From Sparassis latifolia (taxonomy: Eukaryota; Basidiomycota; Agaricomycetes; Polyporales; Sparassidaceae): a stretch of DNA of 64,000 nt. This document shows, in pieces, positions 45,284-50,500 of the stretch. Position numbers and translations under genes: made by a program. The stretch is taken from positions 1,426,001 through 1,490,000 of the forward strand of contig CM031555.1 in the NCBI GenBank assembly GCA_018466975.1. The letters are read 5' to 3'. Every line of letters begins with the position of its first letter. Position 1 is the first letter of the stretch. The notes under the pieces are model-generated. The model saw nothing but the letters and a program-made list of their open reading frames with translations, ran no database searches and was not told the DNA's origin.

Positions 45284-46377
45284 TCAGACAGAGAGATTGA
45301 AATGTGAGTCATCGATGGTACTGAAGACATGTCCTTCGTCCATCAGTTTATCCAGAGCTTCGCTACAGCAATGCACTAGTAAGCGTCGACAATGTTTTCG
45401 GAGCCAGACAACTTGCCTGATGGAGTGTGCGTCTCCGCCTACAGCCCTGGCAATGGCAGCAACATGCACGCCTTCGTCGTTGCGCGTTTGAGAGAGTATG
45501 AAGGTCACAATCTTGCGTTGAATGGGTGGCAAGTTCGAGTACTGATCATTGACCGCTGACGCGTCGTTTGATTGCCCCGAGTAAGCCGAATGCCCCCCAG
45601 CACTCGTGGTGCTTACATTCTGACCAGCTTCACTTGGCCGAGGAGGCTGAAGACGAGATTAACAATTGCGTTCGAGCGCGCGAGATAAATCATACCGGTC
45701 CTCGCTCATATACCAGCTGGTCGAAAGCGGCTTCAAGTATGTGGAAGTAAAGTTCATGCGGATCTGCACAAGGTCGCAGATGTGTAGCATTGATGTAACG
45801 CTTGTTGCCGAATGACTTCAGGCTGCCCGTGACACGGACATAAGTGTTCTCTCTGTGGGGGTATCAGAGACAACCAAAAAAGCTAGGGGAACCCATACTC
45901 AATGTTGCCCCATCGTTCGGCCTCTTCTTCGTTGGAGGAATCAACCCAATGACGAGCTTCGAATCGACCAGTCCCATCATCAAGCCAATATATACAATTT
46001 GTCGTCTGCACTTGAACTGTGACGACAACCGCTACAACGGTGATCTGAGACGATGGTGAACATGCACAATATACAGAGACGATGAAATACACGACAAACC
46101 TGTCCAACATCCACATCATCAATCGTCCATTCGGCGTCCGCATGGGGTTGGGACGCGTTTAGGAGTTGTTTGACAGTGACAGGTCGTAGAGAGGATTGAC
46201 CGCCACGCTAGTTGGAGATATCAGTATGCAGTACCGAAAGATGGAAAAAGCACATACGCGACCGGTACCGCCGGGACTCCCACTCCCACTACCAAAAGGC
46301 GAACCACCGCTGAGATAACCTCCACCTCCACCGCCCGCACTGGGGTAATAAGGATTCTCGCCGTCTGTCACAGCCAT
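45284..46377 (-). CDS. RFA2: Replication protein A 32-kDa subunit (canonical copy)
   Basis: Middle subunit of RPA, needed for replication, repair and checkpoint signalling in the nucleus. The start at 46377 gives the typical Gly/Ser-rich N-tail (MAVTDGENPYYPSAGGGGGG), likely phosphorylated. Then come RPVTVKQLLNASQPHADAEW and the OB fold (TTNCIYWLDDGTGRFEARHW; VRVTGSLKSFGNKRYINATH; DPHELYFHILEAAFDQLVYE), a linker, and a C-terminal winged helix (QRKIVTFILSQTRNDEGVHV; ALDKLMDEGHVFSTIDDSHF), ending NLSV. Several introns. A foldback element begins only 198 bp upstream of the start, so the promoter is short or lies partly in the element. Confidence 0.9.
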
Positions 46378-46574
46378 TCAGCGTAAAATAGGAATGAGGG
46401 ACTCGAGGACATACATGTTTGGCTCATCACAGTTGATTTTCGTATGCTGGTTGTACGTGGAAAGACGAAAGACGCGTCGCGACGCGAACGTAACGTGTTA
46501 TATGCCTGTCGGTCACGCGGCTGTGACATTCGCACACTATCGAGAAGTTGTACGCCATGATTACTTCTAGGTAT

Positions 46575-47483
46575 CACTGGAGGCAAAAGTGGATGTTCTG
46601 CCTTGGAACAGTGTCTGAACATCCAAGGAACAGATTACATTTTTGGACATGTCACATGTTCTGAACATGGTAAGGAACATCTAATATGTCTCGCACAATG
46701 TTCCATTGGAGAGCATGCTGGAGACATGTTGCATGTACCATTCTGGAACATATAATATGTCTCACACAATGTCTCATTGGAGAATGTCCTGCAGACTTGC
46801 TGCATGTTTCATTCTGGAACATTTATCATTTTGCTACTATATTCTGGGCTTATCTCTTGATGCAATATGCTCTGTATAATAAGGATTTCCCATGGCCAAA
46901 CACATTACATTTCTGGCTGCCGTTAATCTTCAGAACATTGTGAGAAGATGTTAAGTGCTCCTACTCCAAACATACAAGATGTCCTGGGCACCAAGAACAT
47001 TTGCAGTACATGTATAATTTTAGTATAATTTTAGTATGTATCATACATGTACTGCAGATGTTCTTGGTGGTCAGAAGATCTTGTATGTTTGGAGTAGGAG
47101 CACTTAACATCTTCTCACAATGTTCTGAAGATTAATGGCAGCCAGAAATGTAATGTGTTTGGCCATGAGAAATCCTTATTATACAGAGCATATTGCATCA
47201 AGAGATAAGCCCAGAATATAGTAGCAAAATGATAAATGTTCCAGAATGAAACATGCAGCAAGTCTGCAGGACATTCTCCAATGAGACATTGTGTGAGACA
47301 TATTATATGTTCCAGAATGGTACATGCAACATGTCTCCAGCATGCTCTCCAATAGAACATTGTGCGAGACATATTAGATGTTCCTTATCATGTTCAGAGC
47401 ATGTGACATGTCCAAAAACGTAATCTGTTCCTTGGATGTTCAGACACTGTCCCAAGGCAGAACATCCACTTTTGCCCCCAGTG
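46575..47483. mobile_element. Foldback (snap-back) element with 441-bp inverted arms
   Basis: Left arm 46575-47015 and right arm 47043-47483 are inverted copies separated by a 27-bp AT-rich loop. By eye I count 13 differences in 441 positions (about 97 percent identity) and no indels; 11 are transitions. Ends read CACTGG(A/G)GGCAAAAGTGGATG. TAT flanks both sides (46572-46574 and 47484-47486), a likely 3-bp target duplication. Each arm holds an 85-codon open frame in opposite orientation, with no similarity to transposases, so it is non-autonomous. It lies between RFA2 (198 bp from its start) and the 3' end of MDM20 (87 bp away). Confidence 0.9.
46683..46822. repeat. Diverged tandem repeat inside the foldback left arm
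   Basis: Two 69-bp units (46683-46751 and 46754-46822), both beginning AATATGTCTC and ending CATTCTGGAACAT, separated by two bases. They are about 80 percent identical and are mirrored in the right arm, so the duplication predates formation of the hairpin. Confidence 0.8.
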
Positions 47484-47569
47484 TATGTAGGATTATAGAT
47501 CTGAGCTGGGATGTAGCTACGCCGGATATTTAAGAGGTATGAGGGCTCAATACCCAATATTAATACCTC

Positions 47570-50500
47570 TCAAACATGATTTTTGCAGACCCGGATGATG
47601 CCTTTGCCAACGCCCTCCAGTATCTGCTTGCGAGCATCCCCTACTTTTTTCGATACTCCGGACACAAAGTCGTGATCAAGCTGTACACAATTCGGTAAGT
47701 GCTGCAAGAAGGCACCTTAAATGAAAGAAATTTTACCTCAGAGGGACCCCAGACAGGCTTGCATGCATCTACAAAGGCCTTTCTACCCTCGACTGTGGCA
47801 TCCGTGTCGCCTAGCTTGATGAGCGACGCAGACATCTCACTCAGCACTGCGGCAGCTTTTATGCGGATATCCTTGAAACTTTGCACCATCTGGTACAAGG
47901 CCCGGTCGATCATAAGCCCAATACCATAACATATACCAGAACGTACCGCCCCTAGTTTATTCATCTTCACGACGGAAGCCGGTTTAAATCGTTGCGTTTC
48001 AATGGTAAGAAGGATCAATGCCTGGCCAACGGTTAAAAATCGCATTCAACCTTGCCATTGCTCAGACACACCTCTTGTGTCAGGGTGGCTACATGAAGGA
48101 CCTCGTAAGGTAGACGCTTGCCTTCTATAACCTCCCTGAAGCGGGCAGCCATGTCTATCAGGAAGTCAGTATGAGATGAGTAAGCATAACACCGCAGGTG
48201 CGCACCATCGAAGAACTTTGTTACAAGCTCTGGAGGTTCTGTGGCAGCAGGAGGATCCTCTTCCTTCTTCGTGTGTCCATTTGCAGCGTCGCCTTTGGGA
48301 GGAAGCTCGACACCCTTGAGAGGATGACCTGTCTTCAGCTCGGTCTGCTTGGCCGCTTCCGCAAGGACCGCAGAAGGCGGTGGCCGGATGTAATCATGGT
48401 AAGGGGCAAGCCAATCTCCCAAAACAGCAGCAAATTCAAGGAACGTCAGCTCGTCAGGGGTCAACTGTGAAAAGAGATGACAATCAGGTGAAGGTTTTCA
48501 GCCATAGATCGCCTGTTGCACCTCATCCAGTTCCTCCTGCTTCCTCCTGACTAGCCTCTCTTTCAGCGGGAGCTTGTTTTCGGGATCAATACTTGGTTTC
48601 GGACGATCACCGATCAACAGTTTGTCCTCGACCGAGTCATCGAGATCGCTGGCGAGTTGTAGCGCTCTGATGTAGATTTTCAAGAAAACCCACAACCAAC
48701 CCAGCTAAACGTCATGCGGAGTGAGTAGTAGGACGATGAACGGGTTCGTGGACATACTCCTGGTAACCTGTCAAACAGCAGGGTTTGTTGGTCAAAGGAT
48801 GGGTGGCAACGCGGTTGGTAGTTGGGGAGAATGCTGAGATCCCGGTTGTCGTGGTGGACTATGAGACAAATTCACTTTAGGAGAAACGTCGTATCTCGGA
48901 AGATATATCACGCACAGCGGTCGAAGATGAATTTCAGCTCGATGAGCTCCATGTCAATAAGGTCGGAATTTACTTGCTCATGAGCTAGTCGCATCCGGAC
49001 ATGTTCGACCTTGATGAGGTCTCGCTGCAGAGAATTGTCGAGTCGATCCTCGAAGAGGATGAACTCTGGGATCTGCACATCCTGAGTCAACCAGAGCAAC
49101 ACATCAGACTATGTAGAGGCGTACTTGCGTGTATTTCTCTGCGTTGAATGCTCGCACGATAAATTCCGCAGTCTGTAAGCGAATGTGTCAATCACATACG
49201 TGGAAACAATGTAGAGCCCAAACCTCTTGAGAGTTGTTTAGATAGATCTGACTCGATTCAAGACACTCAGACGAGTACGTCAGATCCCCAATAGACGACA
49301 ATGAGAATATAGAGGCTCGCGACAAGATGAAGTGCGAAAGTGTATCGCATTGAACTTGCTTCACATTCACCGCCCTGTATTGCTCCAGAGCCAAGGACGG
49401 CGCACCTATCCGGGGAGACATAAATGACACTCCCAAAGTTCTGGATTAGGCTGCCCTGCTCACCCAACAGTCTGTATATGCGGACGAGTGATAATCGCAG
49501 TGGGTACGAGTCTTTGCTCCGACCAATCGCGTATTCCAATACTGCAGCTGCCTGATACAAAAACGCCACCTGACTGGTGGATTTCCACAAGTCAACATAG
49601 ACGTGGCTAGCAAGAACAGCAATATCATCTGCTGGTTGCCTCTCAGTATCTGGGAAATCTTTCCCAAATTTGAGAGCATCAAGGTACACATGAAGGTACT
49701 GCTGCGCACGAGCAGCTTCCAACTCCGGGGTCAATTGAGCTCCACAGAGGTTGTAGCGTGCCAATTTTTGGGCATTGATATAGCGGGATAGATCCGAGAG
49801 CGTGTCCTGTTGGGAGTCATTAACATAGCGAGAGCTGTAGAGTAAAATATGACGAACCATGGAAGTTTGAGACTCTAAGAACGATGTCCACGCCGAAAGA
49901 TCGTCACCTTCCAATTCGACGTATGTCCTCAGATCTTCATAGCAGCAACCTTTGTCACCGAATTGCTGAAAGTACTGCTTCAGGAGGTTTAATAGTTCAG
50001 AGGGTTCTTTAGACGGATGTGAGATCGTGAGTGGCCAATATTTGTAAATGGAGGGATAACCTTGTGATAGACCGTGCATTCTCGCCCGCCTCTCCAATTC
50101 CAGCAACGCCAAGGGACCGGAGCGATCATGCAGACCATCTTGCTCCGCCACCTGAGTGAAAAATTCTCGAGTCTTGGAGATTTCTTCCGCACATGCAGCC
50201 CTAGTAGTATCGTTATCTGAAAGTTCGGAGGTCACGTCCCAGAATGTAGCATCTAACACAGCCAGGAATTCGAGCCAGTTGCGGACCCTCGTGACACAGA
50301 CAACACTCAGAGTCAGCAAATTGTTCGATCAAGCCATGACCATACTCACTTCGCGTCTGTAATTCGCTCCTTCGCCCGAGCTCCCTCCTCCTTGCATAGA
50401 CCTTTCGCCTTCCAGACTTCTCGCCGCAATTCGTCACATGCTAGACTGACTGAGCAGACGGCCTTGCCGGCCTCGTGTTCAAGCATTGTATACGCATCAT

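Follow-up and report, generated by a model that had tools for sequence, protein, structure and literature searches.

A dispersed family of palindromic, CACTGG-ended foldback elements in Sparassis latifolia, with one copy between MDM20 and a putative RFA2 gene

The foldback element and its neighboring genes

The window analyzed here is a 64,000-nt stretch of the Sparassis latifolia genome (assembly GCA_018466975.1, contig CM031555.1, referred to below as C4, positions 1,426,001 to 1,490,000). In agreement with a source in Sparassis, the cauliflower mushrooms of the Polyporales, a 1,032-aa ORF of the window matched an S. latifolia protein with kinase domains at 95% identity, compared to 60% for the next match, which came from another genus. 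A repeat search of the window sequence delimited a 909-bp foldback at positions 46575-47483, lying between two genes that are both encoded on the minus strand (Table 1). The first of these, RFA2, is named solely from its N-terminal translation as read by eye, and the second was identified as MDM20 from a Pfam match (NatB_MDM20, E 7.7e-39) in the ORF at 49267-50319. A preliminary description of this DNA had placed a foldback with TAT on both sides between RFA2 and MDM20, and this was confirmed by the repeat search and by the sequence itself. The dimensions given at that time (441-nt arms, a 27-bp loop, 13 differences) referred to the same structure with each arm taken 3 nt shorter. The full arms are 97% complementary and ungapped, with 14 mismatches in 444 positions, the 14th of which sits at arm position 442, beyond the earlier 441-nt arm. 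Likewise, the distances of 198 bp to RFA2 and 87 bp to MDM20 were adjusted to 197 bp and, with the last MDM20 intron spliced, to 86 bp. Given these spacings and the minus-strand orientation of both genes, the element is placed in the upstream region of RFA2, and from its position alone an influence on RFA2 or MDM20 is possible.

When folded computationally as single-stranded RNA, the element had a predicted energy of -808.9 kcal/mol, compared to -237.2 (sd 7.7) for 20 shuffled sequences; the resulting z of -74 excludes chance as an explanation of the foldback. No ORF of 100 aa or more, counted from ATG, GTG or TTG, overlapped positions 46575-47483. If transcribed through, the predicted hairpin could form a long dsRNA, and the suggestion that it feeds small-RNA silencing is structurally conceivable. 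Nothing in our results shows a role in the host for the copy between MDM20 and RFA2.

Table 1. Positions of the foldback element, the adjacent codons and the larger CACTGG-ended elements (window coordinates unless a contig is given)
Feature	Position	Strand	Basis
Start codon of putative RFA2, 197 bp from the element	46375..46377	-	translation read by eye
Left target-site duplication, TAT	46572..46574	.	window sequence and flank comparison of copies
Left arm, 444 nt, starts CACTGGAGGCAAAAGTGG	46575..47018	+	repeat search
Two tandem 71-nt repeats in left arm, 82% alike	46674..46815	+	repeat search
Loop of 21 nt separating the arms	47019..47039	.	repeat search
Right arm, 444 nt, inverted copy, terminates CCCCCAGTG	47040..47483	-	repeat search
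Two tandem 71-nt repeats in right arm, 80% alike	47233..47374	-	repeat search
Right target-site duplication, TAT	47484..47486	.	window sequence and flank comparison of copies
Stop codon in last MDM20 exon, assuming splicing of the last intron; 86 bp from the element	47570..47572	-	
MDM20 stop codon in the unspliced frame	47641-47643		window sequence
Larger elements (L025-L029, L042-L045)	C20:18557 down; C21:48145 up; C7:1219625 up; C9:2771346 up; C9:2865609 down		

Copies, termini and target sites in the genome

The element was used as a query against the assembly from which the window derives (41.4 Mb; 41,407,202 bases in 22 contigs). At least 84 matches were obtained, counted as at least 42 places, and these included at least 27 full-length copies of 889-919 bp on 12 of the 22 contigs. 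The set of 27 excludes a right-truncated copy (C10:4637570), an overlapping cluster (C6:3171658-3173635), two single arms (C8:1984840 and C7:2225903), five larger elements with CACTGG ends and two interrupted copies on C5. All 27 full-length copies had CAC..GTG ends, and 25 of them read CACTGG..CCAGTG, with a single variant end base on the right of L009 and on the left of L039. The window copy carried 19 changes from the family consensus, and the other copies carried 10 to 82. The whole-genome search for relatives that the preliminary description had proposed thus revealed, rather than a single-copy sequence, a multi-copy family with element-free sites. Among the titles and abstract openings searched, no description of a CACTGG foldback family was found.

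Exact 3-bp target-site duplications (TSDs) bounded 26 of the 27 full-length copies, and in none did the match extend over 4 bp. The sole exception, L037, had TTA at one end and TGA at the other; a further 3-bp pair (AAA/AAA) was found around a nested copy on C5. The triplets were diverse; they were preceded by C and followed by G in 28 of 54 strand-symmetrised cases, and the left triplet was TWA in two copies, both times as TTA (one of them L037). Queries for empty sites were built for all 27 copies from 55 bases on each side, joined with one target triplet, and matches had to reach 15 or more bases past the joint in both directions. Element-free paralogues of the insertion site were found in the same genome for at least 12 of the 27 copies, the best with 100% identity over 111 bases; this number is a lower bound because the best 40 of 241 candidates were scored. 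For nine of the 12, at least one match had equal lengths in query and genome, as a single 3-bp target requires, and in L007, L016 and L017 the lengths were unequal by 1, 2 and 6 bases, respectively. No element-free paralogous site of the window copy was seen in this one genome among the best 40 of the 241 candidates. The exact duplications in 26 of 27 copies and the element-free sites of at least 12 bear out the earlier proposal of transposition with a 3-bp duplication. As read in the assembled sequence, dispersal, fixed ends, 3-bp TSDs and element-free paralogous sites are all established for the foldback family.

Several other places deserve mention. At C10:4637570-4643068, a foldback copy apparently contains an insert of ~4.6 kb about 40 bp before its right end, and a 187-bp sequence at C11:2875023-2875209 bears both CACTGG ends and is perhaps a smaller derivative. 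Foldback copies overlap or are nested in the C6:3171658-3173635 cluster (L034). A CACTGG arm (L030/L031) is split into pieces ~40.6 kb apart, at C5:4297489-4297785 and 4338442-4338601. At the break in this arm, inverted ends are accompanied by two 7-base repeats that are nearly the same (GTTGCAT/GTTGCAA), and there are KDZ matches in the region; this is another insertion into a foldback arm.

Likeness of the arms and pattern of mutation

Arms were compared in 28 copies, namely the 27 full-length copies and the nested C5 copy (C5n). In the family consensus, the two arms differ at 2 of 444 positions. The mean within-copy arm distance was 0.0233, against a mean of 0.0441 for shuffled arms, and none of 20,000 shuffles, which retain part of the subfamilies' shared ancestry, was as low. 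With CpG columns omitted, the distance was 0.0220 compared to 0.0349 (0 of 20,000 as low), and with L041, C5n and L036 omitted as well it was 0.0186 compared to 0.0280 (again 0 of 20,000), the lowest shuffle, 0.0199, coming near the observed value. Changes mirrored between the arms of a copy amounted to 150 pairs over all sites, against 9.3 expected from position alone. Since some CpG columns vary strongly, the mirrored changes were recounted without them, and 109 pairs were obtained against 6.2 expected from position alone; 39 of the CpG-free pairs were confined to a single copy, including 20 outside L041.

A tree built from 63 arms paired left and right arm as sisters for 7 of the 28 copies (support 93-100) and not for the other 21. 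The pairs L003/L006, L014/L017, L005/L007 and L041/C5n grouped left with left and right with right, as expected for plain copying. These groupings, together with the 21 copies lacking sister arms, indicate that arm exchange has not been constant. The simplest reading is arm-to-arm exchange, occurring either in place or in source copies. The Drosophila foldback Galileo offers a precedent for such homogenization: in each of two Galileo copies the arms share >99% identity, and the copies diverge from one another by ~7% (PMC2775673). In Tetris, the TIR-220 repeats of two among three complete copies cluster by element (PMC4079207).

Single-copy C>T changes were distributed as 50 at CA, 21 at CC, 21 at CT and 1 at CG, with backgrounds of 184, 71, 100 and 14, respectively. 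The strong CA bias of a RIP signature was not found among these changes. Across the 27 full-length copies, CpG columns 64, 118, 344 and 347 had lost some or most of their CpGs to TG or CA; column 344, for example, read CG in 5 copies, TG in 13 and CA in 9. This decay would fit cytosine methylation of the foldback family.

Larger relatives, mobilization and classification

Five larger elements, one each on C20, C7 and C21 and two on C9, begin CACTGGGGGCAAAAGCGG in five different flanks. Their first 4.1 kb are alike at 96.7-99.0%; compared with the window arm, the initial 444 bp have an identity of 90.6-91.0% in four of them and of 82% in the fifth. When each is taken as one element, similarity continues to ~13 kb in those on C7, C20 and C9:2865609 and to ~26 kb at C21:48145-74223 and C9:2771346-2797731. 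PRP8 is a spliceosomal gene, and the C7 element holds Prp8-like fragments (PROCN and RRM_4), with similar DNA in the other four. In the 5 to 13.6 kb that were read of each element, neither a second end nor a transposase was found. The nearest inward-facing CACTGG end (≤2 mismatches) lay 94 kb away with unlike flanks for the C9 pair and 369 kb away for C7, and there was none for C20 or C21. A 94-kb giant element between the inward-facing ends C9:2771346 and C9:2865609, with a PF02992 match inside, was considered and rejected because its flanking triplets differ (GTT vs. TTC). Diverged kin (81-93%) of the Prp8-bearing stretch were observed at C9:2163126-2167085, C9:2213980-2216204, C1:325185-330035 and C8:1919912-1940102; each of these regions includes a piece beginning at query base 1894/1895, resembling a separate mobile or duplicated unit.

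The preliminary description had noted that no transposase is present, and for the element and its surroundings this held up in whole-genome scans for Plavaka, KDZ and Transposase_21, in which none of the matches listed fell within C4:1426001-1490000. Elsewhere in the genome there are 27 Transposase_21 (PF02992) matches, and when these were set against 71 CACTGG ends the smallest distance was 22,954 bp. CACTA-like transposases are therefore encoded in this genome, making mobilization of the foldback in trans plausible. No autonomous partner was identified among 39 ORF pieces compared with Pfam (20 from the C5 element described below, 19 from the C21 and C7 elements), the pieces being a selection from genes that are split by introns. 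Pfam's curated cut-offs were passed only by KDZ, Tet_JBP and CxC1/CxC2 in the nested C5 element and by the Prp8-like PROCN and RRM_4 in that on C7.

The CACTGG foldbacks are a new family of a known kind of transposon, with the features of MITEs and foldbacks: they are short, non-coding, multi-copy and built of inverted arms. CACTA/EnSpm elements carry repeated motifs behind their ends. In the consensus arm, ATGTTC/GAACAT occurs 10 times, a count to which the tandem repeats contribute, and in 500 first-order Markov controls no 6-mer occurred more than 7 times. We assign the family to the CACTA type because CAC..GTG ends with a 3-bp TSD are consistent with EnSpm in the classification of PMC12730594. 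The probability that the window element is a copy of a non-autonomous foldback (palindromic MITE) DNA transposon family with CACTA/EnSpm-like ends is, in our estimate, about 90%.

A transposase of CACTA type, acting in trans, presumably serves the family. Such an enzyme would recognize the CACTGG ends, and probably also the repeated motifs behind them, excise the element and insert it at a staggered 3-bp cut, fill-in of which would give the 3-bp direct repeat; the window copy would in this manner have landed between MDM20 and RFA2. We infer that the palindrome arose from one end of a larger CACTGG element, a terminal stretch of ~455 bp possibly having been joined to its own inverted copy. Arm-to-arm exchange, through gene conversion or re-formation of the palindrome, could then keep the arms of a copy alike. 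A more elaborate proposal, which we put forward only tentatively and consider rather doubtful, is that the foldbacks are palindromic offspring of one end of ~13-26 kb CACTGG transposons, these being CACTA-like carriers of PRP8-related fragments, and that arm-to-arm conversion preserves a near-perfect capacity for long dsRNA.

Other origins were weighed against the CACTA-type foldback MITE. Harbinger elements target mostly TWA, which was present in just 2 of 27 left triplets, the triplets being varied. Canonical Harbinger elements do share a 3-bp TSD with the foldback family, but the CAC..GTG ends suit EnSpm (both points from PMC12730594), and a PIF/Harbinger-type MITE is accordingly an improbable assignment. 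The high predicted stability of the hairpin, which lies 197 bp before the start codon of RFA2, might instead be taken to indicate a host hairpin gene in the RFA2-MDM20 interval, with a conserved regulatory or small-RNA function. However, 27 dispersed full-length copies at differing sites, 26 with exact TSDs, are hard to reconcile with such a locus, and the number of consensus changes in the window copy lies within the range of the other copies; we regard this origin as very unlikely. Misassembly of palindromes does occur, and one arm could in principle have been falsely duplicated, but an artefact is scarcely credible, since the full-length copies are spread over 12 of 22 contigs and each has distinct flanks and a distinct set of differences.

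The 20.5-kb element at C5:1322629-1343132 might also be viewed as the source of the family, the foldback then being a deletion derivative moved by a KDZ transposase. It has the same CACTGG ends on both sides, 20,504 bp apart and flanked by AAA, with Tet_JBP, CxC2 and KDZ domains in between. Against this, the inner part was found at no fewer than 17 other places, with no match to query bases 1-448 alongside, among the best 18 of 178 candidates. At eight of the 17 places the first matching base on the left is 449 or 450, precisely the start of the inner element; at the others it falls further in, inside tandem repeats. The inner part, 5'-CACACC...GGGCTG-3', is moreover bordered on both sides by TGATTTT, a perfect 7-bp repeat, within a foldback loop, and by arithmetic the removal of the 19,586-bp inserted element and one repeat leaves a foldback of 911 bp. 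Its CA..TG ends and 7-bp TSD fit Kyakuja as described by Kojima 2025 (PMC12730594). The C5 element was rejected as an autonomous parent, being a foldback copy into which a TET/JBP transposon has inserted, and we give the derivation of the family from it very little credence. Transposons of this Kyakuja type (~19.6 kb, with TET/JBP and KDZ) were observed at C5:1323078-1342663 (L022-L024) and at least 17 other places, and were 91-99% alike over the stretches compared. The other split foldback arm lies in the same region as one of these 17, the one near 4.30 Mb on C5. The C5 case is a warning that an autonomous-looking 20.5-kb copy can be a nested insertion.

As a CACTA-type MITE, the family adds a clean palindromic example from a polypore mushroom, in which TSDs and paralogous empty sites demonstrate transposition. 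The 28 two-armed palindromes form a set for measuring arm-to-arm homogenization outside sex chromosomes. Where a copy lies close to a gene, as here 197 bp upstream of RFA2, it could offer a natural experiment on the question whether basidiomycete RNA silencing draws on long hairpin transposons. Arm homogenization and the link to the large Prp8-bearing CACTGG elements are worth following.

With non-autonomous CACTA/EnSpm (CMC) elements, the Sparassis family shares CAC..GTG ends, a 3-bp TSD (PMC12730594) and motifs repeated behind the ends. It is unlike them in being almost wholly palindromic (444-nt arms and a 21-nt loop) and non-coding. Long inverted arms are a feature held in common with the Drosophila foldbacks Tetris and Galileo, and Tetris also has tandem repeats within its arms and non-autonomous copies (PMC4079207). 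However, Tetris has a TSD of 8-10 bp and is placed there in Mutator (PMC4079207), and Galileo is assigned to the P superfamily (PMC4168063), whereas the Sparassis family has a 3-bp TSD and CACTGG ends. Kyakuja (KDZ) elements differ in having a 7-bp TSD, CA..TG ends and no TIRs, as stated in PMC12730594, compared to the 3-bp TSD, 444-nt inverted arms and different ends of the foldback. The Kyakuja-like TET/JBP elements of Agaricomycetes are found in the same genome, one of them inside a foldback copy.
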